From positions 5,208,001-5,272,000 of the forward strand of contig NC_063012.1 in assembly GCF_020509005.1 (NCBI RefSeq): 64,000 bases of DNA. Reading direction: 5' to 3'. Position numbers and translations under genes: made by a program. This document shows, one piece after another, positions 11,931-57,233 of this stretch. The notes below the pieces were generated by a model. That model made no database searches, had not been told where the DNA came from, and saw only the letters and a list, made by a program, of their open reading frames with translations. Each line of letters begins with the position of its first letter. The stretch's first letter is position 1. The DNA comes from Fulvia fulva. Lineage: Eukaryota > Ascomycota > Dothideomycetes > Mycosphaerellales > Mycosphaerellaceae.

Positions 11931-14390
11931 ATAGGTAAGGACTGGCCGTACAATAGCCGTATATAGAAGTCGTGACTGCCGGAAGTCCGCCCCCCATGTG
12001 GACGCAGTGAGCCTCTGGCATGATGCCATATTCTGTTCAGCTTTCCGTAATATTGCCTGTACGTGCTTCCTCCACCGTAGCGCCGGGTCCACCCATAGTC
12101 CGAGGATCCTGAGCTGATTTGCCGGGTTAGTCGTGTGCCCCTGTATCTGGATAGAAGCTTGCATATTGTGGAACCGTGGCCGGCGCGTAAAGTGTATCAG
12201 ATTGTACTTTTCTGGGGCAAACCGAGCCCCGTGCCTCCTAGCCCAGTCCTCGCAGATCTTGTGCTTCTCTTCTAGTAGCCTACAGTTCTCCTCAGTCGAG
12301 GAAGACCACGCTAGGATGTTTGTGTCGTCTACGAAGCCGCTCGCAGCGGTGTTCTGGGATTCTAGGGCTGGGAGCAGCGTCGCCATAAAGAAGAGGAACA
12401 GAATAGGTGCTAGCGTTGAGCCTTGCGGGATTCCAGTGTGGACTGCTTGAAATGGGCTTCTGTACTGGCCGACCAGGATCGACGTACTGCGGTTTTGGAG
12501 GTAGGACCGTACGAAGTTGACAAGCCACTCAGGGAGTCCTTTCGACCTTAGGATGTAGAGAAGCCGCGGGTGTGACACGTAGTCGAAGGCTCCCGATATG
12601 TCTAGGCTAAGTAAGGAAGCCACCTTGTCCCTATTCTTATACCAGATGGCCTTTACCTGAGAGGTGATAAGTTCCATCGCGGATAGCGTCGATCGCTGTG
12701 GGCGCGCACCCATCTGGGTGTCCGGGAGTAGGGAGTGTTCCTCTGCCGCCTCGGAGAGTCTCGTTGCAACCAGCTTCTCAAGCGCCTTCCCAAGAGTGTT
12801 AAGGAGCGCAATTGGGCGGTACGACTTCACCTGCGTATAGTCTTCCTTCTGCGGCTTGCGTAGGACCACTGTCGTCGATTGTTTAAAAGCTATCGGGTGG
12901 TATCCGGTCTGTAGGCAGGCGTTGAAGATCGCTGCAACTGCTGGGGCTAGTTGATCTCTACACTTCTTTAGTAGCTCGTTTGGGATCCCATCCGGCCCCG
13001 GGGCTTTCTTCGCCGGCAACTTCCTCAGCACAGCGGTAACTTCTCCCTCGGACACCTCCTGTTGGACCGCGATGCTAGGGGCTAGGGGAGTAGAGCTGTT
13101 TATGTCGCTTAGATCAGCCTCGACTGGGGGTGGGAAGAACTTGCTAGCCAGTAGACGCGCCTTGGCCTCGGGGTCGCTAACCGGGCCACTAGGCGATTGT
13201 AGCGCTGGGATAGAGAAGGAGGGGCCCTGTGTAGGGTCCTGTCGGGCCCATTTCGCTAGCTTCCACATCCTCTCTGGCTTGCCGGCGATTTCTTCCACTG
13301 TGGCCCTCCAGCCGACTGCTTTCTCCCTCCGTATTATGGCTTTCTTCTGTTGGCATGCCTCCCTGTATACGTTCCAGGCCTCCTCGCTATGGCTGCTCGT
13401 CCACACCCGGCGGGCTCTCCTTGCTTCTCTTACTACCGCAGTGCACTCCGGCGTCCAGTATGGTTTGGACCATGTCGTTGGTTGGGCAAGCGGAACGTGA
13501 AGTGAGGTCGCTTTTCTTATTTCGTCTGTCAACCCCTGGACTGCTTCGTCTATCTCGTCTTTACTGTTGTATTGCTGCTGCGCGATCTGGACTAGCCTCT
13601 TGGAGTCATCGAGGTACGCCTGGATGTTGGCCCAGTGGGCCTTTCCCCAGTTTGGCTTAGGGGTTCTCGCTGGTGTGCGTTGTATCTGTGTCGCAATAGA
13701 GGTCCTGACTGGCATGTGGTCTGACGACGCCTCGAGTTCATGTTCGATCCCACAGTAGGTTACCGTGTGGTAGTGGCTATCTGAGATCCAGGAGAGGTCG
13801 ATCGTGCCTTGGAGTCCCCCTCTCTTCCAGGTGCCCAGGTCCTTCGGGGTATTGAGGGCAATTGCGTTGCTCGCCATCAAGTCGAGTACTTCGTCGGCTA
13901 TAGGGTGCGGCTGCATAAGGCTTTCCCAGGAAGGGTGGTGTATGTTGAAGTCTCCTACTACGATGTGGCACCCTTGTCTCTTGAGCGCACTGTCTAGGTG
14001 TCTGCAGACCCCTAGGTCGCGGCTAGACCTCGAGGCTGGCGGTTGCATGTATAGGTTGTGTATCCAGGTGCTACCCACGTGGAGGGAGGTAATATCGCCC
14101 CCGCCTTCTTCGTCTGCGTAGTACACTACCTCCCAGTCGGATTCTAGTATGTCCTTGCTGACATAGAAGCACGTGCGGGGTCTGCCGTCGCCTCGTAGGC
14201 ATGTCGTGTAGCCTGGTGACTTGCAGGTCGTTGGTCTCTTATGGTGCGGGTTAATCCATGGCTCCTGGATTGCAAGGACGTGGTGGACGCGCGGGTCCGC
14301 CTCGTGTAGGAAATGGTTCTGGACTATATCCTTGCTATGGTTGACGTTATACTGGATGATGCTAAGCGTGTCGAGGCTAGTCATCGGCAT
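11922..14390 (-). CDS. LINE-B ORF2: endonuclease-reverse transcriptase, C-terminally truncated
   Basis: Nicks the target and copies the element RNA at the nick. The first ATG is at 14390 (an in-frame TTG is at 14396). N-terminal APE-like endonuclease: IIQYNVNHSK, AIQEPW, VVGDFNIHHPSW, TIDLSWISD and SSDHMPV, all within the first 240 residues. RT: PGPDGIPNELLKK, SYRPIALLNTLGKALEKL, SLDISGAFDYV, GIPQGSTLAPILF and catalytic FVDDTN (FVDD at 12325-12336, near residue 685). The frame reads un-RIPed sequence to 11944 and then meets a RIP-made stop at 11922-11924. The missing 285 or so residues are open at 56140-56997. ORF2 overlaps ORF1 by 14 bases. Confidence 0.9.
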   Translation of the reverse strand: MPMTSLDTLSIIQYNVNHSKDIVQNHFLHEADPRVHHVLAIQEPWINPHHKRPTTCKSPGYTTCLRGDGRPRTCFYVSKDILESDWEVVYYADEEGGGDITSLHVGSTWIHNLYMQPPASRSSRDLGVCRHLDSALKRQGCHIVVGDFNIHHPSWESLMQPHPIADEVLDLMASNAIALNTPKDLGTWKRGGLQGTIDLSWISDSHYHTVTYCGIEHELEASSDHMPVRTSIATQIQRTPARTPKPNWGKAHWANIQAYLDDSKRLVQIAQQQYNSKDEIDEAVQGLTDEIRKATSLHVPLAQPTTWSKPYWTPECTAVVREARRARRVWTSSHSEEAWNVYREACQQKKAIIRREKAVGWRATVEEIAGKPERMWKLAKWARQDPTQGPSFSIPALQSPSGPVSDPEAKARLLASKFFPPPVEADLSDINSSTPLAPSIAVQQEVSEGEVTAVLRKLPAKKAPGPDGIPNELLKKCRDQLAPAVAAIFNACLQTGYHPIAFKQSTTVVLRKPQKEDYTQVKSYRPIALLNTLGKALEKLVATRLSEAAEEHSLLPDTQMGARPQRSTLSAMELITSQVKAIWYKNRDKVASLLSLDISGAFDYVSHPRLLYILRSKGLPEWLVNFVRSYLQNRSTSILVGQYRSPFQAVHTGIPQGSTLAPILFLFFMATLLPALESQNTAASGFVDDTNILAWSSSTEENCRLLEEKHKICEDWARRHGARFAPEKYNLIHFTRRPRFHNMQASIQIQGHTTNPANQLRILGLWVDPALRWRKHVQAILRKAEQNMASCQRLTASTWGADFRQSRLLYTAIVRPVLTYSS

Positions 14391-15654
14391 CGACAATCAT
14401 TTCCTCTGTATCGTCCTGTGTCCTACTGCCCTGTGCGTCCTGGTCTACGCCTATCGGCTGTGTACTAAAGGGGAGCCGGGCCTGGTTAGATTCCCTCGCC
14501 GCAGCTAGCAGAGCACGTGGCCTCCCGTACGCCCTAGGCTGCGCATCCTTTACATCGTTCTCGGCCCTAGGGCGCTTGTGCCCGACCGCCGCTAGTTGGT
14601 TCCGGTGTGGGCTAGCCTCACGGTCGCCGTAGAATCTTGGGGCGACGGTTCTGTTTGTGATTGCCTTGTTTTTCGCTAGTTTCCGCTGTGGGCATTCCGC
14701 ACTATACGATGGGTGGTGCCCCGGACAGTTCGCGCACCGTCTCGTAGTCGATGTACAGTCCCTAGACATATGGTCTCCTGCACAGTTCGAGCAGGCCTGC
14801 TTGTTTGTGCACGTGTAGGTTTGGTGTCCATACTGTTGGCATTTGAAGCATTGGAGGACACGAAAGGATGAGGAGTGCTTTTCTACTGTCTTGAGGCTGT
14901 ATTGCCAGACCAGGCCTTGTTCTATCGCTAGATCCGCCGCTTTCGCGTCTTGTAGCCATACTATTAGCGCCGAGGCCTTCTTGCCTTCTGGCCATTTCCT
15001 ATGGAGCCAAGTCGCCTTCTGGATTGGAGAGTTAAGAGTGACCGGGTTGTCCTCTTGGAGAGCGCGTAGGTGACCCTGGTTGGTTGGGTCAAACTCCTTA
15101 GGCATGTCGTGGACTAGGATCGTGAATTGTTTCGTTGAGACCTTCGCTGATGCCGCAACCTTAGATGCCCACTGTGGCTGTGCCTCTAGGTGCCTCCTAG
15201 CAGTAGCAGAGCTAGTATAGATCTGTAGAGTGCCGTTGGACTGTTGGTTCACTGCGACCACCCCTGGTTGGTTGATTCGTTGGGCGAGCTCCTTGTTCGA
15301 TAGCTTCGCAACTTCGGCCTGGTCTTCCTTTGCTGCAATGCGGATCGTAACTGCATCGTGCGTTGGGCGGGGGCCTGGTATCGATGCCGCGACCGATGCC
15401 CAGCTATGGGGGTGTTGATTCCGGGTGGCCTTGCTAATCGCCTGGGACGTCGTCCTCATTTCTTGTTGCCCTCGGTGATACGACAGTACAAGCGCCGTGC
15501 GTAGCTGAGTGATCATTACCTGTAGAGACCGGTAAGGGAGCTGATCGTTAGTTTCCATGCTTTTTGCGTCCTCTATAAGTTGCTGCCAGTTGTCTTGGGG
15601 GGGCTTCGCCTGTAGGGCCGTAGGCGCCGTTAGTGCCGTAGCCTGGGCTGCCAT
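14377..15654 (-). CDS. LINE-B ORF1: zinc-knuckle RNA-binding protein
   Basis: 425 residues from the ATG at 15654. The N-terminal half has no domain I recognise by name. The C-terminal half holds three CCHC-type knuckles at about residues 262-320: CFKCQQYGHQTYTC (C-X2-C-X4-H-X4-C), CSNCAGDHMSRDC (C-X2-C-X3-H-X4-C) and CANCPGHHPSYSAEC. A basic, disordered tail follows. LINE ORF1 proteins of this layout coat the transcript; the role is inferred from the family. Its stop (TAG, 14377-14379) overlaps the start of ORF2 in the arrangement ATGACTAG. It is un-RIPed and probably functional. Confidence 0.88.
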   Translation of the reverse strand: MAAQATALTAPTALQAKPPQDNWQQLIEDAKSMETNDQLPYRSLQVMITQLRTALVLSYHRGQQEMRTTSQAISKATRNQHPHSWASVAASIPGPRPTHDAVTIRIAAKEDQAEVAKLSNKELAQRINQPGVVAVNQQSNGTLQIYTSSATARRHLEAQPQWASKVAASAKVSTKQFTILVHDMPKEFDPTNQGHLRALQEDNPVTLNSPIQKATWLHRKWPEGKKASALIVWLQDAKAADLAIEQGLVWQYSLKTVEKHSSSFRVLQCFKCQQYGHQTYTCTNKQACSNCAGDHMSRDCTSTTRRCANCPGHHPSYSAECPQRKLAKNKAITNRTVAPRFYGDREASPHRNQLAAVGHKRPRAENDVKDAQPRAYGRPRALLAAARESNQARLPFSTQPIGVDQDAQGSRTQDDTEEMIVDADD

Positions 15655-15853
15655 TGCCTAGGAGTTGCCCAATGTAGCTAGGCACCTCCGCGGCGTTTGG
15701 AGCTGAAGAAACAGGGTGAAGAGAGCTTCAAGCTGTCCAGATTGAATGAGGTAGAACTCCCTCAGTCCTAGGGGCAGTGGCCTGCTTTTTATATCGTTGG
15801 AATGGCCTTGATAAGAGCTTTCGAATGTGTCGTGTTTTGGCGCAGAGATCGAT
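15655..15853 (-). other. LINE-B 5' untranslated core
   Basis: 199 bases between the conserved 5' end of the element (atcgatctctgcgcc, ending at 15853) and the ORF1 start. The same 5' end is found, RIPed, at 52217 and 37710, which defines it as the full-length start of LINE-B. An internal promoter is expected in full-length LINEs, but I cannot point to a motif. Confidence 0.6.
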
Positions 15854-15892
15854 GATTCCCTCTACTAGGCGTATATAAGATCGTTATCTTAT

Positions 15893-15907
15893 TAACCTAA
15901 GATAATA
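15893..15907. repeat. 15-bp target duplication, partner at 57172-57186
   Basis: The reverse complement, tattatcttaggtta, is identical to 57172-57186, which follows the 3' tail of the LINE-B copy on the plus strand. The two flanks therefore came from one insertion event, although they are now 41 kb apart and in opposite orientation. Confidence 0.92.
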
Positions 15908-16576
15908 CGCTAGCTATATACCTGTCTAAGGAATTAGTTTCTACGACATAGGGCTTAGTAATATCAAAACGTACTAATACTAGGCGTTTATAGAATACTA
16001 CCTTTAGGGTCTCGAACGTACTTAAGTAGTCTAGGCTCTATACGAAGGGTATACGATTCTTAAGTACGTTACCGCGTATAAGGTCGGTTAAAGGTATAAT
16101 AGTACCGGAAAAGTTATTAACGAACCTCCTATAGAAGTTAGCTAGCCTAAGGAAGGATAGTATATCCTATAAGCTCTATAGAGTAGCCTAATCTATAATA
16201 GTCTAGACCTTGGATTTATCTATCTAAATGCCCTTATTAGTAATAATTAGTCCTAAGAACTTAATGCTCTTCTAGAAGAAGCGGTACTTATAGACGTCTA
16301 TAGGAAGTCGAGCGTCAATTAGACACTTAATAATAGTACGTACGTGTTTTACGTGTTTCTGAAATGAACTATACGTAAATACAATATAGTCGTCTAGGTA
16401 TATAGATACGAAGTCGTCTAAGTGTCTATATAATACTTTATTAATATATATCTAGAACGCGCTTAGTACGTTATAGAGACTAAATAGTACTATAAGCTAT
16501 TCGTAGGTACTATATCGGGTAGTAAAGGCTATCTTCTATTCGTCGCCTTTACGGATACGTAGCTCGTTAAATACTA

Positions 16577-16591
16577 TAATAATGTCTAAGG
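16577..16591. repeat. 15-bp target duplication of chimera copy 1 (left; right copy 19459-19473)
   Basis: taataatgtctaagg occurs immediately before the chimera and immediately after its tetranucleotide tail. The length matches the other LINE-B insertions here (15-16 bp). Confidence 0.92.
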
Positions 16592-16756
16592 GTCGACGAC
16601 GAGAATTACCTATACGTAGTATCGGCTACGAACCTCTCGTCTTACTATAAGAGAGCTAAGTATTCTTACGCTAGAGCGTCGTAGACGCGACGGGCGCGTA
16701 ACGTAGGCGAAGCCGCGGCGAATAGAGGACTACTAGTAAAACGGGTATAAAAACTA

Positions 16757-16990
16757 TCCGACGAGCGTATACTCGTATTAGGAGCGAGTCCCTCTTCTTT
16801 CTACGTATAAGAAGGGCGCGAAACCGTAGCCTATACGCTTAATAGGACACCTCTAGTATAAGTATAGAATTTTTACCTCCGGAGACCGTAAACCGAGCGG
16901 GCTAAGCGACGAATATTAGACGAGCGGACTATAGAATGATAACTAAGCGGACTATACGACGGCGTCGAGCGGACTACGAAACAATCTAGT
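16757..16990 (+). repeat. About 233-bp segment in the chimera 5' block, repeated directly at 17672-17905
   Basis: Begins atccgacgagcg and ends aatctagt; copies are at 16757, 17672 and (second chimera) 29699. It holds short inverted repeats (acgag/ctcgt; ccctcttctt/aagaaggg) and four iterations of a GAGCGGRCTA-like motif at about 26-35 base spacing near its end. The ends are not TG...CA, so LTRs are unlikely. Confidence 0.75.
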
Positions 16991-17925
16991 GTTTACTAGC
17001 GGGTAATACGGTAGGTAGGTAGATACGCGACGAAGCCTATAAGGGCCTATTAAACACCCGGTATAGGAACGAGGGTTTTACCTAAGGTACTACCTATCCC
17101 GCTATATAACGTACCTAGTCTAATATAGTAGATTACGACGAGGAAAAGACGATAGCCTAAGTAAGGAAAAGACGGCTATTAGGACGGGGAAAAGACGTAT
17201 AATATAAGTGGATTAGTTCTATAATCGGGGAGGATCGAGGGTAGGGTAATAAGGAACTTTATATTAGTTAGTAGGTAGAAACGTAACGAGTACGCTACCC
17301 GGCGTAGTGTGTGCCCCGAGCAAACCTACGAGGTATAGACGGCCGCTTTCTAGAGATAGGCTACGGTAACGCGAAGGGCGTCAAAACCTATAGCGTAGTA
17401 TATACTAGTAGCGACGGCTAATACTATCTATATAGCCCGAGAGGACGGATACGTATATCGGTTAATAGAGAGTACTAAAGTACTTAGGCCTATAGAGGTA
17501 GATATTAGCTTAAGGAGTAAATAGGAAGGGAGGGCGTAGAGAGAAGCTTTTACTCCGGGCTAACCTCTCGAAACGAGGCTATACGGTAGTACTAGATAAG
17601 TAGGAAAGCGCGGTTAAGACTTATTACCTTATCTCGTAGCTAGCTTACTAAATACACTTCCTTCCTTATATCCGACGAGCGTATACTCGTATCGGGAGCG
17701 AGTCCCTCTTCTTTCTACGTATAAGAAGGGCGCGGAACCGTGGCCTATACGCTTAATAGGACACCTCTAGTATAAGTATAGAATTTTTACCTCCGGAGAC
17801 CGTAAACCGAGCGGGCTAAGCGACGAACATTAGACGAGCGGACTATAGAATAACAACTAAGCGGACTATACGACGGCGTCGAGCGGACTACGAAACAATC
17901 TAGTATATAACGGTTTATAGTCGTA

Positions 17926-19458: not shown

Positions 19459-19476
19459 TAATAATGTCTAAGGCAG

Positions 19477-19809: not shown

Positions 19810-19999
19810 TTTTAGTAGTTAATAAGGGGGGGGTTCAAGTATATACCCGGTAGCATTATTAGTATATTTTAGTAAAATCAAGGTTAAGGTCGACTCGAAG
19901 TCGAAATCTTAAGGTATTAAGGTACCTAAGGTCAAGGTTCTTAGTATTAAGTAAAGTAAGTATAACGTTACGAGTAAGGTTACGGTTACGAACAAGGTT

Positions 20000-32724: not shown

Positions 32725-32752
32725 GATTAGATAGCTTCTCCTTACGATATAG

Positions 32753-35700: not shown

Positions 35701-37765
35701 TCGGGGTATTAAGAGCAATTACGTTACTCGCTATTAAGTCGAGTACTTCGTCGGCTATAGGGTACGGCTATATAAGGCTTTCCTAGGAAGGGTAGTATAT
35801 ATTAAAGTCTCCTACTACGATATAGTACCCTTGTCTCTTAAGCGTACTGTCTAGGTGTCTATAGACCCCTAGGTCGCGGCTAGACCTCGAGGCTAGCGGT
35901 TGTATATATAGGTTATGTATCTAGGTGCTACCTACGTAGAGGGAGGTAATATCGCCCCCGCCTTCTTCGTCTGCGTAGTACACTACCTCCTAGTCGGATT
36001 CTAGTATGTCCTTACTAATATAGAAGCACGTACGGGGTCTGCCGTCGCCTCGTAGGCATGTCGTATAGCCTAGTGACTTGTAGGTCGTTAGTCTCTTATA
36101 GTACGGGTTAATCTATAGCTCCTAGATTATAAGGACGTAGTAGACGCGCGGGTCCGCCTCGTGTAGGAAATGGTTCTAGACTATATCCTTGCTATAGTTG
36201 ACGTTATACTAGATAATACTAAGCGTATCGAGGCTAGTTATTAGCATCGACAATTATTTCCTCTATATCGTCCTATATCCTACTGCCCTATACGTCCTAG
36301 TCTACGCCTATCGGCTATATACTAAAGGGGAGCCGGGCCTAGTTAGATTCCCTCGCCGTAGCTAGTAGAGTACGTAGCCTCCCGTACGCCCTAGGTTACG
36401 TATCCTTTATATCGTTCTCGGCCCTAGGGCGCTTATACCCGACCGCCGCTAGTTAGTTCCGGTATAGGCTAGCCTTACGGTCGCCGTAGAATCTTAGGGC
36501 GACGGTTCTGTTTGTAATTGCCTTGTTTTTCGCTAGTTTCCGCTATAGGCATTCCGTACTATACGATAGGTAGTACCCCGGATAGTTCGCGTACCGTCTC
36601 GTAGTCGATATATAGTCCCTAGATATATAGTCTCCTATATAGTTCGAGTAGGCCTACTTGTTTATACACGTATAGGTTTGGTATCTATACTATTAGCATT
36701 TGAAGTATTAGAGGACACGAAAGGATAAGGAGTGCTTTTCTACTATCTTAAGGCTATATTGCTAGACTAGGCCTTATTCTATCCCTAGATCCGCCGCTTT
36801 CGCGTCTTATAGCTATACTATTAGCGCTAAGGCCTTCTTACCTTCTAGCCATTTCCTATAGAGCCAAGTCGCCTTCTGGATTAGAGAGTTAAGAGTGACC
36901 GGGTTGTCCTCTTAGAGAGCGCGTAGGTGACCCTAGTTAGTTAGGTCAAACTCCTTAGGCATATCGTGGACTAGGATCGTAAATTGTTTCGTTAAGACCT
37001 TCGCTAATGCCGTAACCTTAGATACCTACTATAGCTATGCCTCTAGGTGCCTCCTAGTAGTAGTAGAGCTAGTATAGATCTATAGAGTACCATTAGACTA
37101 TTAGTTCACTACGACTACCCCTAGTTAGTTAATTCGTTAGGCGAGCTCCTTGTTCGATAGCTTCGTAACTTCGGCCTAGTCTTCCTTTACTACAATACGG
37201 ATCGTAACTATATCGTACGTTAGGCGGGGGCCTAGTATCGATGCCGCGACCGATGCCTAGCTATAGGGGTGTTAATTCCGGGTAGCCTTGCTAATCGCCT
37301 AGGACGTCGTCCTTATTTCTTATTGCCCTTAGTAATACGACAGTATAAGCGCCGTACGTAGCTAAGTGATCATTACCTATAGAGACCGGTAAGGGAGCTG
37401 ATCGTTAGTTTCTATACTTTTTACGTCCTCTATAAGTTACTACTAGTTGTCTTAGGGGGGCTTCGCCTATAGGGCCGTAGGCGCCGTTAGTACCGTAGCC
37501 TAGGCTACTATTATATAGGAGTTGCCTAATGTAGCTAGGCACCTCCGCGGCGTTTAGAGCTAAAGAAATAGGGTGAAGAGAGCTTTAAGCTATCTAGATT
37601 AAATGAGGTAGAACTCCCTTAGTCCTAGGGGCAGTAGCCTACTTTATATATCGTTAGAATAGCCTTAATAAGAGCTTTCGAATATGTCGTGTTTTGGCGT
37701 AGAGATCAATAGTCCAATATAGATATATCAAGCTATTATTATATATTCTTAGGATAGTAGAAATC
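32753..37765 (-). mobile_element. LINE-B copy 3, full length, RIPed
   Basis: Core 32753-37710 (4958 bp, close to the 4955 bp of the restored un-RIPed LINE-B), TCTA-type tail at 32753-32767, and a 15-bp target duplication ctccttacgatatag at 32738-32752 and 37766-37780. Both ORFs are traceable but broken; a 68-codon RT piece remains open at 34706-34912 (AILRKLPAKKAPGPD). The 55 bases between the core and the duplication (37711-37765) include a 35-base exact match to G3 gag (29470-29504). Confidence 0.9.
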
Positions 37766-37780
37766 CTCCTTACGATATAG

Positions 37781-39298: not shown

Positions 39299-39313
39299 TA
39301 TTATCGGCTTATA

Positions 39314-42616: not shown

Positions 42617-43064
42617 AATGTACTCTACTACCGAGTAGGCTACTTTTGCTAAGAACTATACTACTTCTACTTTAATTACGACGGTATCTTAATACGACGA
42701 CATCCTATAGAATCGTTACTAGGAGGACAATTCCTCTTTAGATTCTTCGCTATCTAGTAAGTCTACTTAATAGGTACGTACGTTATGCCCCGACTCGCTA
42801 TATCGCTTATAGCGTCGTAGCCTTAGTACTAGCCGAATACTATCTAGCGACTCTCTACTCACTTCCTACCTCCTAGTATCCTCTAGAGGTATTAATTGCG
42901 ACGCCTTATCGAAGGTTAGAGACCCTCTAGACTAAATATACTTGCGCTTTCGTGCTTTTCGCTATATAAGGGCCTCGTTAGACTTACGTAGCTTACTAAT
43001 CTCGCTTCGTATAAGAGCTATCTAATACGCTATCTTTCTACTCCCTTTTATAAGCTGATATACC
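42617..43064. other. Unassigned RIPed sequence
   Basis: About 450 bases between G2 and the RIPed G1. CpA/TpG-poor like its surroundings. I see no open frame, repeat partner or motif in it; it is presumably part of another decayed element. Confidence 0.4.
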
Positions 43065-43248
43065 TATAAGGGCGCGCGTATTATAGGGTCCGAACGAGAT
43101 AGTTATTGTTCTACGAAGCTATAAAAGAGGAGCGCGAGGCGCGGCGAAGTTATAAAGTAAAGCTAAGCCGCGCTAACCCAATACGGAAGGTCTGCGGTTC
43201 AGCCGGGCCGACGTAGCTATAGTAGGGGGTCGCGGGCTGCCCGTAATA
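43065..43248 (-). repeat. RIPed G1 3' LTR
   Basis: 184 bp, reverse complement of the intact G1 LTR with C-to-T/G-to-A changes in CpA/TpG context; the ends have decayed to TA. Confidence 0.92.
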
Positions 43249-46200
43249 GTATCCCCCCTCCTAAAACACGCCTTAGTCCTCTAAGCGTTATCTACCTTAT
43301 AAGGCTACTTACCTATCGAGCTCTATAATCGCGCGAACGCCTAGTTATCCTCTAGTACCCTATCGTTATCCGATAATATCGTATTCGCTCTATTAAGACT
43401 ATCCTCGACTAGCTTCCTTTAAGAAACATATTGCCTAGTTAGCTAGCTTACCCTAGACCTACGTCTATCTTCGGCTAGTACTCGCGTATAATCCTTATAA
43501 CTAAAGTTAGGTATTATTATAGGCTCTATAGGCTCTACTCGAGTATCGAACATATACGGAGCAGATTCTATTAGAGGTAAGGCTCGAGGCGACTTATTCG
43601 TAACGGTGTCTTTCGGAATGACCCTGATCGTATTAAGCCCGAGTACCTTAGTAGCTAGTAGGGACTAGTTAGATAGAGCTACGAAGCCTATAGGCGTAAA
43701 CAACTCCGGCCGGTTATAGTGAAAGTCTATAATAGCGGCGGCCGCGTGTTTAAGTATGTCCTCTATAGGTTACTAGGTCTTACTATCCTCCTCGTTCTAA
43801 TATCTAGCCCATTTCACCTTATACTATATATCTACCTTACGCTTATACCCCTTCTTCACCTTGCCTACCCGCTTACGGGTATATATATTAAGGATCTTTC
43901 CTACCTCGTATATATACGTAGGTACTACTACTATATCGGCTACTATATTAGCCTCGGTAGTGTTAGGTTCGATAGTTATTAGTAGTAGCGGCGCTAGATA
44001 CTACCCTTCAAGTAGTAGGAAATCGGGGTGGTCGGCTCGTTATAGTAGTGAGGTGTAGAAGTAGTTATTAAGTCCTACTAGAGCGTCTAATAGTTTTAGT
44101 CGATAAGAGAGTCTAGCCGGTATGACTTCCGTGATCTAGTAAGGGCCGGTATATTTCCTATCTAGCTTCTTAGATAGTCGAGTCGTACGGATGTTCTTAG
44201 TGCTAAGATATACCTAATTACCTATCTTATAGTCTAGACGAATGCTTCGGTAGCGGTTTGCTACTTCTACTTAGAGAGCTTATAACATTCGTATATTCTC
44301 TTAAAGGTGCTTATAAAGCTCGTAAATTCGACGTATAAAGGTTTCTACTGATCGCGTATCTAGTCGCTAGAGAGTAGTTAGTCCTCCCTCCTTTCTAGCG
44401 TTTAGGTCAACTCGCTCTATAAACTTAGGGTTGTAGCCTAAGGTAGCGTAGAACGGCGATATACTAGTAGTCTCGGACAGGTGATTATTGATCGCGAACT
44501 AAGTAAGGCATAGCTATTCTGCCTAGTCATCCTATACCTTATTAGTGAACATACGAAGATACTATTCTATCGCCTAGTTAGTACGTTCTAACTGTCTATT
44601 AGTTTCTAGGTAATACGAAGAACTTAGCTTACGATTTGTACGGAGTATCTTATAGTGTTTCTTCTAGAAGGTAGTAATCTACTACTTACTACGGTCTAAT
44701 ATAATAGTATTAGGAAACCCGCGCCGATAGAATATATATTTAAGGAAAAGCCTTACCGTATTCTATACTGTTATTACGCTAATAGGGATCAGCTCGACTT
44801 CCTTAGTAAGCCTATTAGTAACGGTTATAATGTTGTTATAGACTATACCGTCAAGAGTACTATCTAGGAGTCCGATAACTAAGTCGACTACAATATGTTT
44901 CTAAGGCCGATCTAGAATAGGAAGTGGCTATAATAATCCTAGTAGCTAGGAGTATAGAGATTTTGTTATACGGTAGGTACGGCAATTCGTAGTGTATCTA
45001 CGTACGGATCTCGCTAATCTAGGCTAGTAGAATTTACGTACTACGAGTTTATAAGTACGAGCTCGTCCTAGATAGCCTACTACTAGAGCGTCATAGTTTA
45101 TCTTAATTATCCTAGTCTATAAGGCTTAGTCATTTAGTACCTATAAGCTCTAGCCGTCGTATTAATTTCGAATATATAGTAGGTCGCTATCTACTTTATA
45201 GTGTACTAGGTGAATCTTCGCTCTCTATAGTAGTGTAGGAGTACGGTCTTTCTATAGGTCCTTAATCGCGGTCTTAAGCTCGTTATCGGTTACGTACGCC
45301 GTTAACATTCGATACTCGAGTTCGGCTTCCCGTTAACTTTTACGCGTCGCTGGTTGTTTAGTAGGCGCATCTCGTTCTATAGGTATAAACTCTTTAGCTT
45401 TAGGGTCTAGCTATACTAGTTTCTCTTCTTCCGGCGCATCTTCTACTATTGCCTATAGTAAGGCGATCTTAAGGAATCGCTTAGGAGGCAGTAATGTCTA
45501 ATACTAATACTAGTTCCGAGGGTCGTTCACCCCCTACGGAAGGTCCTAGCTACGTCTCGTTAGGCTGTCTAGCTTTGTACCTTGAAGTCCTAGACGGTAT
45601 ATTATCTTGAAGTTGAACTGTAATAAGAACTTAGCCTAACGCGCTTGTCGCCGATTTAGCTACTTTGTCTTTATAAAGTATTCTAGGTTCTTATAGTCGG
45701 TATAAATCTTGACTAGCTATAAGTCCTTATTATCTACTTCGTAGGCGAGCTCGGGTCTCTATTCCTTAAAAGCCTTAATAATAGCTAACAGTTCCTTATT
45801 ATAGATTTCATAATTACACTCCTATAGACTTAACTTCTTCGAGTAGAAGGCTATAGGATGTAGCACACCCTTCTCGTTATACTACAAAAGTACGCCGGCG
45901 TTTATAAAATCTAAAGAATCTATCTCTACTACCGTTTCCCTACCTAGTACATAATGTACGAGTATACCGGCTTTACTAAACGTAGCTTTCAAATTGTCAA
46001 AGGCTCGTTAGCAATCTAGTGACTATTAAATCCTTCTGTTCTTGTGATTGCTTAGTCCGTCCGACTTAGTCAGGTTTGTAAGAGGAGTAGCTATACGCGA
46101 AAATGCTTCAATAAACCGCCTATAGAAGTTAGCAAATCTAAGGAAGGCCTAGACATCCTTTAGGTTCTTAGGAGCTTCCTATATCTAAATACATTCGAGT

Positions 46201-49200
46201 TTCTCGGGGTCTATCTCGATACCGTTAGGGGTTATAATTAGCCTAAGATACCTCACCTTCTATTAGTAGAATTCGCTTTTATCGATGTCTACTATAAGTC
46301 CTGTATCGCGTAGCTTAGTAAGAACCTTCCGCACGTATTTAATATACTCCTCTAAGGTGTCACTAAAGATAAGTACGTTATCTAGGTAGGCCGATATAAA
46401 GTCGTCTAGGTGTTCTTATAAGACCTTATTAATATATAATTAGAACGATGCTAGTCCGTTATACAAGCCGAATAGTAGTACTAGACACTCGTAGATGCCG
46501 TATCGTGTCGCAAACGCCGTTAACCACTCGTGCCCTTTAGCTATCCGTAACTTGTTAAAGGCTACTATAATGTCTAGCTTCGTAAAGTACTTCTTACCGT
46601 ATATACGGTTAAGCGTCTCTTATATTAAGGGAATCGGATACCGGTTCTTAATAGTGATCGTATTCAATCCTCTATAGTCGATATAAACACGTAGCCTACC
46701 TCTAGGCTTACGTACTACTAGTACTAGTACAGGAGAATAGCTCGTCTTTTACCCTACTTTCCGTACCTTCCCTTTAGATATTTACTCGTCTAGCTATTTC
46801 TTAACTACCTCGTTCTCCTTCTTAGCTAGGCCGTAGGGCTTGCGGTATAGTGGCTCTTATAGACTATTAGGCTTAATGTGAATCTTATGATCTACGCCTA
46901 GTCGGTAAGGTAGGAGTCCTTTATAATCCTTAGCTAAGAAAGCGTCCGTAATATCGTAGTATATCGGCGGCAACTTCTCCTTCGGGTTGTAATTGAACTA
47001 CTTGTTTAAGAATTAGTCTAGATCATTAGTAGCTATTACACTTAGCTTAAGCTCTCCGTCGTCGCTCTTACGCCTAGTAGGTATAATGTAGAAGCACTTA
47101 GCCCTAGGCCGGTACGCGTACATTCCCTACGCGCGTTAAGAAACGCCCTAGTAGTCCACTTCTTCATCGTCTATGTCTTCTAGGTCATATAATAAGACGT
47201 TTAGCTCCGCCCCTCCTACTATAAAGCTCGCTACTTCTCTAGTAAAGGGCTCTAGTCCGTACCGTACTAGTGCCTACTTCTTCTTCTCGCGATAGTTTAG
47301 GGATTATACTATTATCGATGTCTTATTCTATAGACAGTGACCAAAGTAGTAATCCGATCTAAATGCTACCTCGCCTATCTCCTAGAAGATGTTTAGGTTA
47401 TGCGCTATAAGCTACGGTAGGCTAAAGACGATGTTATATTCGAGGTCGGTAACGTAGTATAACATTTACTCGTAATAATCGCCGATAACTACGTCTATAA
47501 GGGCCGCGTGTATAATCTACCGTATAGTAGCCGTTCTATCTCCTAGTGTTAGTCGTCGGCTTTACGTCAAAGGGATTAGGGGTATTATATATTTGCGTAT
47601 AAATTTCTAGTTAAGAAAGAGAGAGGTAGAAGTAGAATCTATAAGGCCTCGAGCCTTTCTATATTATATTATTACGGGTAATAATATATAAGGGTATATA
47701 GCTAGCTATTGTTTATCTAGTACGTATACCGATATCTTACGCTCCTTACTATAGTCTATTACCGTCTCTTACATTCCGTGTCTCTTAATCTTATACTCTT
47801 TCTATCCTAGGAAGTTCGGGTAACCGCTATCTACTACGCTTAGGTAGCGGTCGTACTATTTCCCTACTACGGATCGGCGGCTAGGGAACTAAGGTTCGCG
47901 TTCGGATTCGGCGTAGTATTACGTAGACGCGGTAGGCGATAGTCGCTATCGTACCTATACATTAGGTATTTAGGGTTAGTCGATACGTAAGGACCTATAC
48001 GGTAGCGGTAGTACTTACCCTACTTCTTAAGGTCTTCGCGCTACTTACGGTTAAGCGTAGGTAGGTTCTATAGATATGTCGGTAGATCCTCCTTCTTCTT
48101 AGTACTAGCGTACTGTAGTAGGCGCTATACTAAGGCACCTACTATACCGGTAGCGGTACTAGTAACTACGTTACCGTTATTCTAGTTATTCTAGCCGCTA
48201 TTACCGTTCGAGTTACTATTACTACCGGGGCGCTCCTTCTACGGGTATAGTCGATCTGTCTCGTAGAAGCTCTCGTCTAGTACGGTATACTCCTCGATAA
48301 CGTCTTATATACTATCTAGGCGGCGGTCGACTTCGCGGTTACCGAAGGTCTTAATAAAGTACTTACGGTTTAGTCGGTTACGGAATAGTATAAGCTCGGT
48401 CTTATCGGTCTATAACATCTAGGCGCGTAACTTCGAGTAGCGTATATAGAAGGCTATAAAGGTTTCGCCTTATTCTTACTTATAGGTAGTAATATTAACT
48501 ATAGCCTTAGTTCCTTTATTACGTGTACTATATTAGCGTGTTATCTAATCTAATAACTCTTCTCTAGTCTTAAACTCGTTAAAGGACTACTATCTAGGCA
48601 TAGGGATCCTCGGCTTGATACTTCGCTAAGGATCACCTTACGTCTACCTATATACGAAGCGTAGACTATCTACCTTAGTACGGAAGGTTACTATAGTTAG
48701 CTTTAGGAGAACACTACTATACTAGCTGTCGAAATTAGGGTCATTATTATTCTTAAAGTGCTTAGGGTTAGGCACACCCTTACCGATCTCTATATCGCGA
48801 GTAAGGGTGCGGTTAATAGTGAAGAGACGTTCTAGAAGGTCAACTAGTAGTGTCTAGGTACGGGTATTACGTATTCTCGAGTCACGACTATTATTAGGTC
48901 CTAGTCGCGGACGGTCGTTATTACGTCCTCGGCTATTATTACTACGGTTATAGTCGTCTCTATCGTTATTACTACTACCGCTACCGCCACCTCTACTAGT
49001 AGCTTCGCGATACCTACGTAATAGCTACTCGAGTAAGGTCTCGCGTAGGCGGGAACGAGAGGGTCGGCGGCCTAAGCGGCCCCTACCTCCGTTCTATATA
49101 GTGTCTCCTGCCTTAAGCCGAGCCTTTAGGTTATCGACTTCTTGTTATAGGGCCTAGTTCTTCACCTTAGCATCTTGTGCCTTCTTCTTCTCCTTCTTAT

Positions 49201-50096
49201 AGATCTCGCTAAACTGCTTATATAGGTTGTTAGCTTCCTTATATTTCTTCTCTAGCTCTTATAACTTAGCTAGGTCGTAATCCTTCTTACTCTTAAGATC
49301 TACTACCATTTTCTATGTGACAAGCTCTTCACTTCGTAGCATCTTATAGATACGGTCGTATTCGGTATATAGCGTAGTATACTAGGTGTTCTAGAGGTCG
49401 TTAGCTCGCTCTATTATATCGAGTTGTCTGCCCTTAGTAATCGCCGTATTAACTACTTATAGTACGAAGTCGTAGGTAGTCTTCGGGTGTTAGGATATAA
49501 GGGTCGTAAGGTTGTCTAGGGTGACATTCTAGTATTCGGATACGAGAATGTGTTCTACCTCGTCGAGTAATAGATATACCTTGTCTAGGTCGCCGCCTAG
49601 GTTCTCTTCGAGCTTAAACTCGAACAGTTCTATAAAGTCAATCTTACTACCTTCTTCTCGCTCGAAGGCCTTCTAGTAAGCTTTATTAATCTCTTGTTAT
49701 AGCGCGACACCGGTGTCTACTATAACCCGCCGGTTATCGTCCTATATCTAACTCTAAGGGAAAGAGGAGAGGTCGGGGAAAAGAGATATACGCTACTTAC
49801 TTTTGCCCTTAGGCTTAGGTAGCGGTAGTATACCGCCGTTCGCTATTTATAAAGTTATATTGTCTAGGTTTAGGGGAGGCGTAACGGTACCTATATCCTA
49901 ACTATCTACGAGCGCGCGACTACCTACTAATAATGTCGCTACGTTACGTTCTCTAGGTATCTACGCGCTATACGCCTTACCGTAGTCTATATTCTAATAC
50001 GACTCTACGCGTTCTCGAGTTCTACGGTTCTGTCTAATCCTATTATTACGCGTCCCTTACCTAGATCCGCGATCTAGGTAGGGTAGTAGAACGAAC

Positions 50097-50280
50097 TGTA
50101 AGGGCGCGCGTATTATAGGGTCCGAACGAGATAGTTGTTGTTCTACGAAGCTACAAAAGAGGAGCGCGAGGCGCGGCGAAGTTATAAAGTAAAGCTAAGC
50201 CGCGCTAACCCGATACGGAAGGTCCGCGGTTTAGCCGGGCCGACGTAGCTATAGTAGGGGGTCGCGGGCTACCCGTAACA
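50097..50280 (-). repeat. RIPed G1 5' LTR
   Basis: 184 bp, reverse complement of the intact LTR. The ends tgta...aaca are partly preserved. The primer-site hairpin region lies just left of it. Confidence 0.92.
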
Positions 50281-50454
50281 CTAGGGATATAATTACTAGC
50301 TATATAGAGACCTAATAAGGGCCGAAGTAAGTATAGTAATCTAAATTAGGTCTAAATATATTAGATTAAGGGCCTACTTATTTAGGAGATACGTACTAGA
50401 TATCTAAAGCCTAGCCTACTAGTATAGCTACCTATTATAAAGCCTAGAATATAT
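50281..50454 (+). repeat. LINE-A fragment forming an inverted repeat with 50735-50905
   Basis: About 173 bases that are the reverse complement of 50735-50905, differing mainly at RIP-type positions. The arms surround the LINE-A 3' end and tail. A sequence like this can form a hairpin of about 170 bp with a 280-base loop. Confidence 0.8.
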
Positions 50455-52161
50455 AGATAGATAGATATTTTATTAAGCTGTTGTAGTGCCCTTTGGCCTA
50501 TATAGCTATACTATCTTGTTTTTGTATATATAGAGGGGAAACCGTGTTAGTAAAAACCCCTCCTCCTTCCCGCCTATCTTTTCCTCCTCGTTGTGTAGTA
50601 TCTACCGAGAGATTCGGCGAATGTTACCTTTGTCCCTAATAATTGACTTATAGTCTCTCCTTCCCGCTTAGTGCCTCCAATTTCCCCTACCTCTCGCCTA
50701 CTACGGGCATCTTAGTAGTATATGTTCTAGGTTTTACGATAGGTAGCCATACTAGTAGGCTAGGCTATAGATGTCTAGTACGCGTCTCCTAAATAGGTAG
50801 GCCCTTAATCTAATGTGTTCGGACCTGATTCAGATCGCTATACTTGCTTCGGCCCTTATTAGGTCCCTATATAGCTAGTAATTGTGTCTCTAGAAGGCTC
50901 GGAGCGCTATCGGGCCTATTGTCTTAGGGGGCTTCCTTTTCTAGTCCTACTCCTATAGGTAGCTCGCTATCTATTCCGCTAGGCTTTAGGTCTTAGCCTT
51001 GCTCCCGCCGGCCTAGCGAGTCCTACGCTCCTCCTCCTTTCGTACTAGCCATTCGGTGCTTATCTATACGGCCGTAAAGGTAGTAAGGTCATCCTCTTTT
51101 TAGCTTGTCCTATGTCCTACCCCTCTCCGGTAGCGGCTTTCTATCTTATTCTTTGCCTCCTAGATCGTGGTTTATACTAGGTAAACTATCGTCTTTACCG
51201 CGTATTAAATTCTTATTCCCCGGATATACTAGCCGATTAGTAGTATTCCTGTCTCTATTTCTACCGTACTTGTTAACGTTGTCTTATATACGCCTAGTAC
51301 CCTACGTAGGTTGCCTACCTATATCCTGTTTAGGGGTTGCTCTATCCGTTTCGGGATCGGCTTGCCTACGCCTCCTATTCCCTAAATCTGTGCCCCGTAT
51401 AACATAGCTAGTCTAACGATCGCCTTATATATTACTCTTACCTTATCGAATGTTGCTCCCTATATAGATACCGTAAGCCTCTTTATCGAGGCTTTATTAA
51501 CTTACGCTCGACTCTAGGCTTTCTTAATCTATATATTCTAGCTTAGCTTCGGGTCGAGCTAGATCCCTAGTACTCGTAGCTCCGCTAATAGCTTAGTCCC
51601 GTAGCCTTAGATTCTTACCGCCGCCTTTATATTATAGTATGTTCTCGCTTTACTAAAGTGTATAAGTTAGTACTTTTTAGGGGCGAACCGGGTACTATAC
51701 TTCTTTACCTACTCCTCGTATTTCTTGTGCCTATCTTTAAGGAGGCGACAGTTCTCTTCTGTCGAGTCTGACTAGGCTAGGATGTTTGTATCGTCTATAA
51801 ACCCCGATACTAAGGTTTACGGAGAGGTAAGTAGGGGGATTAGATCCGACATAAATATTAGAAATAGGATAGGGGAGAGAGTAGATCCCTAAGGTATTCT
51901 AGTCTCTACCTTTACCGGGTCGGACGTATACCTTCCTAGGACTAGGTATGTCGTCCGTTCCTAGAGAAAGGAGTAGACGAACGACGTTGCCTACTAGGGG
52001 ATGCCTTTCTGCTATAGGATATATATTAGCCTTTGGTATAAGACGTTATCGAAGGCCCCTACGATGTCGAGAGATAGTAAGGACGCCGCTCGGTTCCTAC
52101 CGTAGTACTAGAGGGTCTGAATTTGCTCCGTAATTAGCTCTATTACTATTAGTGTCGATCG
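50455..52161 (-). pseudogene. LINE-A 3' half (RT to tail), RIPed
   Basis: On the minus strand, from 52161 inward, it reads RSTL, ELITEQIQTL, SLLSLDIVGAFDNVL, GSTLSPILFLIFMSDL, SGFIDDTNILA and FAPKKY, i.e. RT with the FxDD motif. The 3' UTR follows, with a tetranucleotide tail at 50455-50468. It is the expected continuation of the LINE-A part that stops at 10899; the two share the 16-bp sequence at 10884-10899/52146-52161. Confidence 0.8.
52146..52161. repeat. 16-bp target duplication, partner at 10884-10899
   Basis: ctattagtgtcgatcg is the exact reverse complement of 10884-10899. It flanks the 5' end of the RIPed LINE-B part on the plus strand, while its partner flanks the RIPed 3' part on the minus strand. 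Confidence 0.9.
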
Positions 52162-52216
52162 ACTATTTCTAGGAGTAGGGTCAGGTCGGCTATAAAGAGG
52201 AGGAGATTAATCGCCT

Positions 52217-55200
52217 ATCGATCTCTACGCCAAAACAAGACATATTCGAAAGCTCTTATTAAGGCCATTCTAACGATATACAAAGTAGGCCACTACCCCT
52301 AGGACTAAGGGAGTTCTACCTTATTTAATCTAGACAGCTTAAAGCTCTCTTCACCCTGTTTCTTTAGCTCCAAACGCCGCGGAGGTGCCTAGCTACATTA
52401 GGCAACTCCTAGGTAATAGTAGCCTAGGCTACGGTACTAACGGCGCCTACGGCCCTATAGGCGAAGCCCCCCTAAGACAACTAGTAGCAACTTATAGAGG
52501 ACGTAAAAAGTATAGAAACTAACGATTAGCTCCCTTACCGGTCTCTATAGGTAATGATCACTTAGCTACGTACGGCGCTTATACTATCGTATTACCGAGG
52601 GTAATAAGAAATAAGGACGACGTCCTAGGCGATTAGTAAGGCCACCCGGAATTAACACCCCTATAGCTAGGCATCGGTCGCGGTATCGATACTAGGCCCC
52701 CGCCTAACGTACGATATAGTTACGATCCGTATTGTAGTAAAGGAAGACTAGGCCGAAGTTACGAAGCTATCGAACAAGGAGCTCGCCTAACGAATTAACT
52801 AACTAGGGGTAGTCGTAGTGAACTAATAGTCTAACGGTACTCTATAGATCTATACTAGCTCTACTACTACTAGGAGGCACCTAGAGGCATAGCTATAGTA
52901 GGTATCTAAGGTTACGGCATTAGCGAAGGTCTTAACGAAACAATTTACGATCCTAGTCTACGATATGCCTAAGGAGTTTGACCTAACTAACTAGGGTCAC
53001 CTACGCGCTCTCTAAGAGGACAACCCGGTCACTCTTAACTCTCTAATCCAGAAGGCGACTTGGCTCTATAGGAAATGGCTAGAAGGTAAGAAGGCCTTAG
53101 CGCTAATAGTATAGCTATAAGACGCGAAAGCGGCGGATCTAGGGATAGAATAAGGCCTAGTCTAGCAATATAGCCTTAAGATAGTAGAAAAGCACTCCTT
53201 ATCCTTTCGTGTCCTCTAATACTTCAAATGCTAATAGTATAGATACCAAACCTATACGTGTATAAACAAGTAGGCCTACTCGAACTATATAGGAGACTAT
53301 ATATCTAGGGACTATATATCGACTACGAGACGGTACGCGAACTATCCGGGGTACTACCTATCGTATAGTACGGAATGCCTATAGCGGAAACTAGCGAAAA
53401 ACAAGGCAATTACAAACAGAACCGTCGCCCTAAGATTCTACGGCGACCGTAAGGCTAGCCTATACCGGAACTAACTAGCGGCGGTCGGGTATAAGCGCCC
53501 TAGGGCCGAGAACGATATAAAGGATACGTAACCTAGGGCGTACGGGAGGCTACGTACTCTACTAGCTACGGCGAGGGAATCTAACTAGGCCCGGCTCCCC
53601 TTTAGTATATAGCCGATAGGCGTAGACTAGGACGTATAGGGCAGTAGGACATAGGACGATATAGAGGAAATAATTGTCGATGCCGATAACTAGCCTCGAC
53701 ACGCTTAGCATTATCTAGTATAACGTCAACTATAGTAAGGATATAGTCTAGAACCATTTCCTACACGAGGCGGACCCGCGCGTCCACTACGTCCTTATAA
53801 TCTAGGAGCTATAGATTAACCCGTACTATAAGAGACTAACGACCTACAAGTCACTAGGCTATACGACATGCCTACGAGGCGACGGCAGACCCCGTACGTG
53901 CTTCTATATTAGCAAGGACATACTAGAATCCGACTAGGAGGTAGTATACTACGTAGACGAAGAAGGCGGGGGCGATATTACCTCCCTCTACGTAGGTAGC
54001 ACCTAGATACACAACCTATATATATAACCGCTAGCCTCGAGGTCTAGCCGCGACCTAGGGGTCTATAGACACCTAGACAGTGCGCTTAAGAGACAAGGGT
54101 GCCATATCGTAGTAGGAGACTTCAATATATACTACCCTTCCTAGGAAAGCCTTATGTAGCCGTACCCTATAGCCGACGAAGTACTCGACTTAATAGCGAG
54201 CAACGTAATTGCCCTTAATACCCCGAAGGACCTAGGCACCTAGAAGAGAGGGGGACTCTAAGGCACGATCAACCTCTCCTAGATCTTAGATAGCTACTAC
54301 TACACGGTAATCTACTATAAGATCGAACATAAACTCGAGGCGTCGTTAGACTATATACTAGTCAGGACCTCTATTACGATATAGATATAACGTACACTAG
54401 CGGGAACCCCTAAGCTAAACTAGGGAAAGGCCTACTAGGCTAATATCTAGGCGTACCTCGATAACTCTAAGAGGCTAGTCTAGATCGCGTAGTAGTAATA
54501 TAATAGTAAAGACGAGATAGACGAAGCAGTCTAGGGGTTGATAGACGAAATAAGAAAAGCGACCTTACTTTACGTTCCGCTTGCCTAACTAACGACATAG
54601 TCTAAACTATACTAGACGCCGGAGTGCACTACGGTAGTAAGAGAAGCAAGGAGAGCCCGCCGGGTGTAGACGAGTAGCTATAGCGAGGAGGCCTAGAACG
54701 TATATAGGGAGGCATACTAATAGAAGAAAGCTATAATACGAAGGGAGAAAGTAGTCGGCTAGAGGGCTATAGTAGAAGAAATCGCCGGCAAGCTAGAGAG
54801 GATATAGAAGCTAGCGAAATGGGCCCGATAGGACCCTATATAGGGCCCCTCCTTCTCTATCCTAGCGCTACAATCGCCTAGTAGCCCGGTTAGCGACCCC
54901 GAGGCCAAGGCGCGTCTACTAGCTAGCAAGTTCTTCCCGCCCCTAGTCGAGGCTAATCTAAGCGACATAAACGGCTCTACTCCCCTAGCCCCTAGTATCG
55001 CGGTCTAATAGGAGGTATCCGAGGGAGAAGTTGCCGCTATACTAAGGAAGTTACCGGCGAAGAAAGCCCCGGGGCCGGATAGGATCCTAAACGAGCTACT
55101 AAAGAAGTGTAGAGATCAACTAGCCCTAGTAGTTATAGCGATCTTTAACGCCAACCTACAGACCGGGTACCACCCGATAGCTTTTAAACAATCGACGATA

Positions 55201-56139
55201 GTGGTCCTACGTAAGCCGTAGAAGGAAGACTATACGTAGGTAAAGTCGTACCGCCTAATTGCGCTCCTTAATACTCTTAGGAAGGCGCTTAAGAAGCTAG
55301 TTATAACGAGACTCTCCGAGGCGGTAGAGGAACACTCCCTACTCCCGGACACCTAGATAGGTGCGCGCCTATAGCGATCGACGCTATCCGCGATAGAACT
55401 TATCACCTCTTAGGTAAAGGCTATCTAGTATAAGAATAGGGACAAGGTGGCTTCCTTACTTAGCCTAGACATATCGGGAGCCTTCGACTACGTGTTATAC
55501 CCGCGGCTACTCTATATCCTAAGGTCGAAAGGACTCCCTAAGTAGCTTATTAACTTCGTACGGTCCTACCTCCAAAACCGTAGTACGTCGATCCTAGTCG
55601 GCTAGTATAGAAGCCTATTTTAAGTAGTCTATACTAGAATCCCGTAAGGCTTAACGCTAGTACCTATTCTGTTCCTCTTCTTTATAGCGACGCTACTCCT
55701 AGCCCTAGAATCCTAGAACACCGCTACGAGCGGCTTCGTAGACGACACAAACATCCTAGCGTAGTCTTCCTCGACTAAGGAGAACTGTAGGCTACTAGAA
55801 GAGAAGCACAAGATCTACGAGGACTAGGCTAGGAGGTACGGGGCTCGGTTTGCCCTAGAAAAGTACAATCTGATACACTTTACGCGCCGGCTACGGTTCT
55901 ATAATATATAAGCTTCTATCTAGATATAGGGGCACACGACTAACCCGGCAAATCAGCTTAGGATCCTCGGACTATAGGTGGACCCGGCGCTACGGTAGAG
56001 GAAGTACGTATAGGCAATATTACGGAAAGCTAAATAGAATATAGCATTATGCTAGAGGCTCACTACGTCTATATAGGGGGCGGACTTCCGGTAGTCACGA
56101 CTTCTATATACGGCTATTATACGGCTAGTCCTTACCTAT
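52217..56139 (+). pseudogene. LINE-B ORF1 and ORF2 N-terminal part, RIPed
   Basis: Collinear with 15853-11931 without net gaps. ORF1 (about 52416-53690) and the endonuclease/RT of ORF2 (from about 53680) are readable through stops; for example, RT text around 55040-55790 retains AKKAPGPD-like and GFVDDTNIL segments. The changes are C-to-T or G-to-A in CpA/TpG context. Confidence 0.9.
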
Positions 56140-57186: not shown

Positions 57187-57233
57187 GAGAGGACGGTAAA
57201 TTATATCCTATCGTATTCTACTCGATAAAGATA

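Follow-up and report, generated by a model that had tools for sequence, protein, structure and literature searches.

A stretch of 64,000 nucleotides of the tomato leaf-mould fungus Cladosporium (Fulvia) fulvum Race 5 (Chr1:5,208,001-5,272,000; hereafter, the window) contains two copies in opposite orientation of a long interspersed nuclear element (LINE), here called LINE-B, each of which is a chimera of one part that bears the scars of repeat-induced point mutation (RIP) and one part that does not. We conclude, with a probability of roughly 0.88, that the ~44 kb between these copies was flipped by one reciprocal homologous crossover between two inverted parental copies, the un-RIPed X and the RIPed Y. 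The pattern itself, that is, the chimeric copies together with the exchanged target-site duplications and hosts, is confirmed as real at this locus. Inversion by ectopic recombination between transposon copies is already known as a mechanism (from the Galileo element, and from repeat-linked variants in C. fulvum and related fungi); what sets the present case apart is that the parents are a RIPed and an un-RIPed copy diverged by 9%, that the event can be ordered after RIP, and that it is mapped to 13 bp. A single genome assembly, of 67,169,167 bases in 14 contigs, was used throughout.

Two LINE-B copies that switch RIP state at the same place

The minus-strand copy runs from 15853 to 10894 and the plus-strand copy from 52217 to 57176; homologous copies in opposite orientation are thus found at both breakpoints of the proposed inversion. 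They align over 4,960 bp without any gap, with 456 mismatches (90.8% identity). That they belong to a LINE is apparent from the un-RIPed copy L013, in which one open reading frame (ORF) of 1,107 aa combines an endonuclease with a reverse transcriptase (matches to PF14529, PF03372 and PF00078), and from the target-site duplications of the copies.

As a reference for the RIP state we used the majority base of five other near-identical LINE-B copies in the genome. On the 5' side the minus copy differs from this reference at 1 of 3,895 sites and the plus copy at 366 (356 of them C>T or G>A); on the 3' side the minus copy differs at 89 of 1,037 sites (83 of them C>T or G>A) and the plus copy at 3. 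The minus copy is therefore un-RIPed in its 5' part and RIPed in its 3' part, and the plus copy is the opposite, as a preliminary description of this DNA had claimed. The changes bear the signature of RIP: 432 of the 441 polarised C>T changes are at CpA, against a background in the intact 5' part of 489 CpA among 2,178 C positions, counting both strands.

Moving 5' to 3' along the element up to positions 11944/56126, nearly every difference pairs a C or G of the minus copy with a T or A of the plus copy; from 11930/56140 onward this direction is reversed. The switch of both copies lies in the same 13 bases, found on opposite strands at 11931-11943 (minus) and 56127-56139 (plus). To the left of it 358 transitions are consistent with an intact minus copy, with 5 contrary transitions and 5 transversions; to the right 83 transitions are consistent with the reversed state, with 3 contrary transitions and 2 transversions. 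Measured in the alignment, the 5' parts are of equal length in the two copies, as had been noticed by eye: 15853 to 11931 and 52217 to 56139 are both 3,923 bp. We also carried out a change-point scan in which 29 LINE-B copies were profiled against the single reference copy L013 (L011, L013 and L028 were left out of the table). The change-point falls at element position 3962 in the minus copy (log-likelihood ratio, lnLR, 133.3) and at 3949 in the plus copy (lnLR 82.4), which are the two edges of one 13-bp interval; alignment, majority-base comparison and scan thus agree on the switch site originally proposed. A sharp RIP step is present in only the two window chimeras among the profiled copies. 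Eight of the 29 have at least 10 RIP-type differences, and the six of these besides the chimeras reach an lnLR of at most 11.6; the 21 further copies have 1 to 8 RIP-type differences each.

Both copies are chimeric, then, and change state at the same aligned place. The minus chimera consists of the 5' part of X (11944-15892, minus strand) joined now to the 3' part of Y (10900-11930, minus strand), and the plus chimera of the 5' part of Y (52162-56126, plus strand) followed by the 3' part of X (56140-57171, plus strand). The coding content follows the same division: in the minus chimera ORF1 is 425 aa long (14377-15654) and ORF2 is cut to 824 aa (11922-14396), versus the 1,107 aa of L013, a remnant in which Pfam still recognizes the endonuclease and reverse transcriptase domains. 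The X-derived end of the plus copy contains an ORF (56149-56997) for which a Pfam search found no family. After the exchange no full-length un-RIPed LINE-B is left in the window.

Target-site duplications and hosts are exchanged between the copies

The 15 bp at 15893-15907 (minus strand), at the 5' end of the minus copy, are the reverse complement of 57172-57186 (plus strand), at the 3' end of the plus copy; these constitute the duplication of X. The duplication of Y is represented by the 16 bp at 10884-10899 (minus strand), at the 3' end of the minus copy, which are the reverse complement of 52146-52161 (plus strand), at the 5' end of the plus copy. The longest strings common to the flanks are thus 15 and 16 bp when searched crosswise, but only 9 bp (minus copy) and 7 bp (plus copy) in cis. 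Target-site duplications have been exchanged between the copies, and the contrary arrangement, with duplications matching within each present copy, did not appear when it was checked, so that the crosswise-only pairing initially claimed for both duplications holds.

Several controls put this result in perspective. A third LINE-B copy, T, which is RIPed and lies inside the inverted segment (32749-37712, minus strand), served as an internal control and is flanked in cis by a 15-bp duplication of its own (32738-32752 and 37766-37780). Elsewhere in the genome a cis match of at least 12 bp near the ends, in a few cases of low complexity, was found in 21 of 25 LINE-B copies. Of the four without such a duplication (L011, L025, L028, L033), L011 aligns only from element position 120 and L028 only from 1753, and L033 is explained by a tandem array on C2 described below; no partner for L011, L025 and L028 was found among the 48 copies compared. 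As a check on chance, among 2,256 between-copy comparisons of 48 copies the only end-adjacent matches of at least 15 bp other than TA runs were those of the window pair and of the C2 array; the remaining long between-copy matches were two TA runs and two strings (29 and 24 bp) lying away from the element ends.

The repeats into which X and Y inserted tell the same story. These hosts, named 'G5' (X) and 'LINE-A' (Y) in the preliminary description, were followed in five uninterrupted copies each, out of 41 rows for the X host and 40 for the Y host. For the X host the upstream stretch tested is 15908-16493 (minus strand), and all five copies run from this 15.9-kb side into 57172-57238, where the overlap is the duplication, and then into 62853. 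The downstream side of this host (57187-57238, plus strand) is broken by a Copia-type element at 57239-62853, after which the host resumes at 62853. For the Y host the stretches tested are 3018-3618 (plus strand) upstream and 51561-52145 (minus strand) downstream, and all five copies continue from 3618 across 10841-10899 to 52161 and then toward lower coordinates. This host is also split, by a Gypsy-type element at 3619-10840; its main part lies to the left of 3619, and just the segment between the Gypsy-type element and Y (10841-10883, plus strand) plus the duplication adjoins the minus LINE-B. Thus, in 10 of 10 uninterrupted copies tested the host is continuous only after flipping. The crosswise continuation of the hosts originally described stands, with the refinement that each host is split also by a long terminal repeat (LTR) element; both of these elements lie outside the inverted segment.

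Conversion between repeats is a common process, and RIP density does vary along copies (the lnLR is 11.6 in L037 and 10.3 in L046), so it may be asked whether gene conversion or patchy RIP could have made the two mosaics without any inversion. Neither process, however, swaps flanking duplications and hosts, and these were exchanged as well; moreover, each copy has one reciprocal switch, and the several alternating RIPed and un-RIPed blocks that would be the mark of conversion were looked for along the two aligned copies and not seen. We have rejected both processes, and assign them practically no weight.

The probable crossover and its alternatives

Turning the segment round would leave X un-RIPed and Y RIPed along their whole length, each with its own duplications; the proposal that flipping restores one intact and one RIPed LINE-B is supported by the RIP halves and by the duplications. 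Counted over its two reunited parts, X has RIP-type changes at 0 of 3,895 sites (5' part) and 1 of 1,037 sites (3' part). The simplest history would begin with the insertion of Y, which would then have been RIPed, and continue with the later insertion of X, inverted relative to Y on the same chromosome. Repair of a break in one copy from the other may then have given a joint that was resolved by crossing over within a single chromatid; such a crossover between inverted repeats would swap the copy ends and flip the ~44 kb with the loss of no base. Since both junctions fall within one interval and there is no sign of a conversion patch, the joint would have been short, or its mismatches would have been resolved alike on both sides.

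The RIP state also carries information on time. X is a young copy: among the best 40 places listed, 20 of the 39 other places scored, and hence at least 20 in the genome, are identical to it over the 2,001 bp tested. RIP acts on repeated DNA before meiosis (PMC9453070), and because X is nearly without RIP despite its many near-identical copies, it appears to have escaped every RIP pass from its insertion onward. The inversion must be younger than X. As C. fulvum is described as mainly asexual (PMC10823647), and X seems not to have been through a RIP pass, the crossover was probably mitotic.

A different origin for the pattern would be an error of assembly, with paths swapped inside the two LINE-B copies and the 44 kb printed reversed, X and Y being really whole. 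Such a misjoin would yield the same halves, duplications and hosts, and the flanks of the copies are themselves repeats; the preliminary description left inversion and misjoin undecided. The Race 5 assembly was built with Canu from PacBio reads of mean length 14,638 bp at ~125x, polished with Illumina reads and checked with Sniffles (PMC9453070). Mean reads at this depth are ~3 times as long as the repeat, and the Canu correctedErrorRate of 0.03 compares with a divergence of 9.2% between the copies (PMC9453070). Sniffles made two calls in the nuclear contigs, neither of which was backed by Illumina reads (PMC9453070). A misjoin would also require a pair of reciprocal errors, both in one identity run, and longer runs exist between the copies. 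On the strength of the published read length, depth, assembler setting and structural-variant check, which favour a true inversion, we consider a misjoin unlikely.

Coexistence of the two orientations, as a polymorphism in the culture or among isolates that may flip back, is compatible with an inversion by crossover and has a small but appreciable probability. The inverted repeats remain after the inversion, so that reversal is possible in principle; on the other hand, the account of the assembly reports no supported structural variant for the Race 5 reads (PMC9453070), and a second crossover would usually shift the switch point, while a single switch is seen.

The mechanism of joining was considered separately. 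Instead of a homologous crossover, two breaks could have been sealed by end-joining or microhomology, or replication could have switched templates, and the fact that the exchange occurred within only 13 identical bases, an ordinary run for the LINE-B pair, is in keeping with this. Both junctions, however, are in exact register over the 4,960-bp ungapped alignment and no base was lost, a coincidence that would be rare if the two joints were independent. The register argues for homology-directed repair rather than end-joining, and we regard the latter as quite improbable.

The size of the exchange run deserves some comment. There are 443 identical runs between the parents, with a median of 8 and a maximum of 68 bp, and intervals as long as the exchange interval or shorter account for 46% of the inter-difference length; judged by run length, the site is what a random position would ordinarily give. 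The idea that the exchange preferred a long identity tract is not supported by run length (13 bp versus a maximum of 68), although the identity over 401 bp is at percentile 95; a single event cannot establish a rule on the choice of exchange sites.

Several observations weigh against an inversion by homologous crossover. A run of 13 bp is short for homologous exchange, as 57% of the identical bases are in longer runs of up to 68 bp. Around the switch site the two copies are 88% identical in a 51-bp span; for 201 bp the figure is 91% (percentile 57), and for 401 bp it is 92% (percentile 95). By these figures the exchange may or may not have mildly favoured similar surroundings. Among the RIPed copies with ends fetched, only 7 of 20 have a cis duplication of at least 12 bp at the element tail, and thus the absence of a cis match is by itself weak evidence for an old copy like Y. 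The 44-kb inversion is absent from the three large variants named in the paper that compares five C. fulvum genomes (PMC10823647). In the same paper 718 structural variants are reported in Race 5 versus 0WU, and over isolates 97 to 98% of variants are insertions or deletions (PMC10823647); this leaves room for a small inversion unnamed in the text. Finally, the evidence comes from the sequence of one Race 5 assembly.

Another candidate that we have rejected is the insertion of a ready-made chimera, which a further copy sharing a junction would suggest: no other copy with either junction was found among the best 40 of 1,431 and 1,425 candidates. The closest other matches to the two junctions, among the best 40 per query, are 98% and 97% identical over 601 bp. 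Four of the 78 junction-query matches outside the window were fetched, and these carry RIP-type changes all along the part that aligns and lack a step of similar kind (one of the four, L046, aligns only from position 983).

The interior of the inverted segment (15908-52145) consists of repeats. A scan found no unspliced ORF of at least 200 aa in it, and hence there is no sign of a disrupted gene, although one with introns could escape a scan of this kind.

Known systems, and other probable exchanges among LINE-B copies

The closest parallel is the Galileo inversion 2z3 of Drosophila buzzatii, in which two inverted chimeric copies at the breakpoints, with exchanged target-site duplications, were likewise attributed to ectopic recombination (PMC2775673). 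Galileo is a DNA transposon in an animal, and non-inverted chromosomes were sequenced for comparison (PMC2775673); here the elements are fungal LINEs, seen only in the present order. The scars of RIP distinguish the two parents at hundreds of positions and thereby place the switch to 13 bp.

In C. fulvum itself, losses of Avr4E, Avr5 and Avr9 are linked to transposons. One of them, a 91-kb deletion, lies between LINE/Tad1 copies on the same strand that are 85.9% identical, and nonallelic homologous recombination has been suggested as its cause (PMC10823647; Tad1 is the name given there to other LINE copies). These losses resemble the event in the window in that they are rearrangements between repeat copies in the same species, but they are gene-affecting deletions or a nonreciprocal translocation rather than a balanced inversion of repeats, and the passages devoted to them trace neither chimeric junctions nor exchanged duplications nor the RIP state of the copies (PMC10823647). 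The three large variants recorded among five isolates are a 654-kb inversion, a 1.2-Mb inversion and a Chr4-Chr10 translocation; like the 44-kb inversion proposed here they are large rearrangements, and two have their breakpoints in regions rich in repeats, the third having them at a duplicated segment of 7.2 kb (PMC10823647).

Related fungi offer further comparisons. In Leptosphaeria maculans, a fungus of a related class, comparison of two species revealed 30 intrachromosomal inversions, 1.3 to 355 kb in size, and transposons border 70% of them; neither chimeric copies nor exchanged duplications are given in the account of these inversions (PMC4210507). In Mycosphaerella fijiensis 125 LTR retrotransposons with differing 5' and 3' insertion sites were taken as evidence of ectopic recombination (PMC3562529), and in Cochliobolus heterostrophus recombination programs were applied to aligned copies (PMC4112212); unlike here, the partners were not paired into a named rearrangement in these reports (PMC3562529, PMC4112212). 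The authors of the M. fijiensis study considered very degenerate copies unlikely targets because of their decreased homology (PMC3562529), whereas in the window one of the two partners is RIPed. No fungal inversion mapped by RIP state is described in the titles and abstract openings listed by the literature searches.

Recombination is expected to be reduced between mutated repeats. The locus is sequence evidence that copies driven 9% apart by RIP exchanged parts after RIP had acted. RIP state combined with exchanged duplications offers a way to find and order such events from one assembly, and would make it testable whether rearrangement in this crop pathogen tracks the age and identity of its repeats. 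A broader proposition would be that RIPed and un-RIPed copies diverged by 9% crossed over through 13 identical bases, that RIP divergence is no block to ectopic crossing-over, that RIPed/un-RIPed pairs can act as reporters of mitotic rearrangement at base resolution, and that LINE-B is an ongoing source of inversions and tandem duplications; taken as a whole, we hold it tentatively, at slightly short of even odds.

A second exchange is suggested by three tandem LINE-B copies, L032, L033 and L034, spaced ~6.7 kb apart within G000:C2:3828980-3848418. The middle copy, L033, has the 5' duplication and flank of L034 and the 3' duplication and flank of L032: it agrees with L034 in 312 upstream columns and in 104 columns assigned to the element by the border, and downstream 377 columns agree with L032 and 4 do not. 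Internally it differs from L013 at 10 positions, the same as L034, and four private differences of L032 are absent from it; the exchange would then be near the 3' end, unless the private differences are later mutations of L032. The array is consistent with unequal crossing-over between LINE-B copies in direct orientation, or with a tandem duplication of equivalent effect. As in the window pair, the duplications are exchanged as expected from a crossover between LINE-B copies; unlike in the window pair, the repeats are direct, the outcome is a duplication, the three copies are un-RIPed and the crossover is mapped less finely. This array suggests that exchange between LINE-B copies is not confined to the window.

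Some further features of the family were recorded. An un-RIPed and a RIPed LINE-B on different chromosomes (L026, G000:C14:64714-70714; L085/L086, G000:C6:643594-643794 and 648624-648844) have the same 14-bp target duplication, TATTAGTATACGGA, on both sides, which would mean either that the locus was duplicated or that insertion took place more than once at a single site in a host repeat. The 5' extensions that precede the common start of the element vary (15854-15892 and 52162-52216 in the window, and also in L025 and L032-L034), and a short extension, AGAGAGGTCTACATCGCTACGATATTGACGG, is common to L025, L033 and L034; the differing extensions possibly represent variable 5' ends or sequence gained at insertion. 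L037 (G000:C1:2288584-2294584) is a near-intact LINE-B with 16 RIP-type changes, nearly all in its 5' 1.9 kb (lnLR 11.6), perhaps a light RIP tract or the product of conversion.

The same Gypsy-type element occurs twice in the window in inverted orientation, at 3619-10840 and 43064-50280, with 86.8% identity between the copies; the left copy has identical 184-bp LTRs and ORFs of 708 and 1,598 aa, and the right copy is AT-rich. This pair is a possible second substrate for inversion. The Copia-type element at 57239-62853 has 235-bp LTRs that are 99.1% identical and an ORF of 1,551 aa; it is inserted in the host of X, at a distance of 52 bp from the X duplication.

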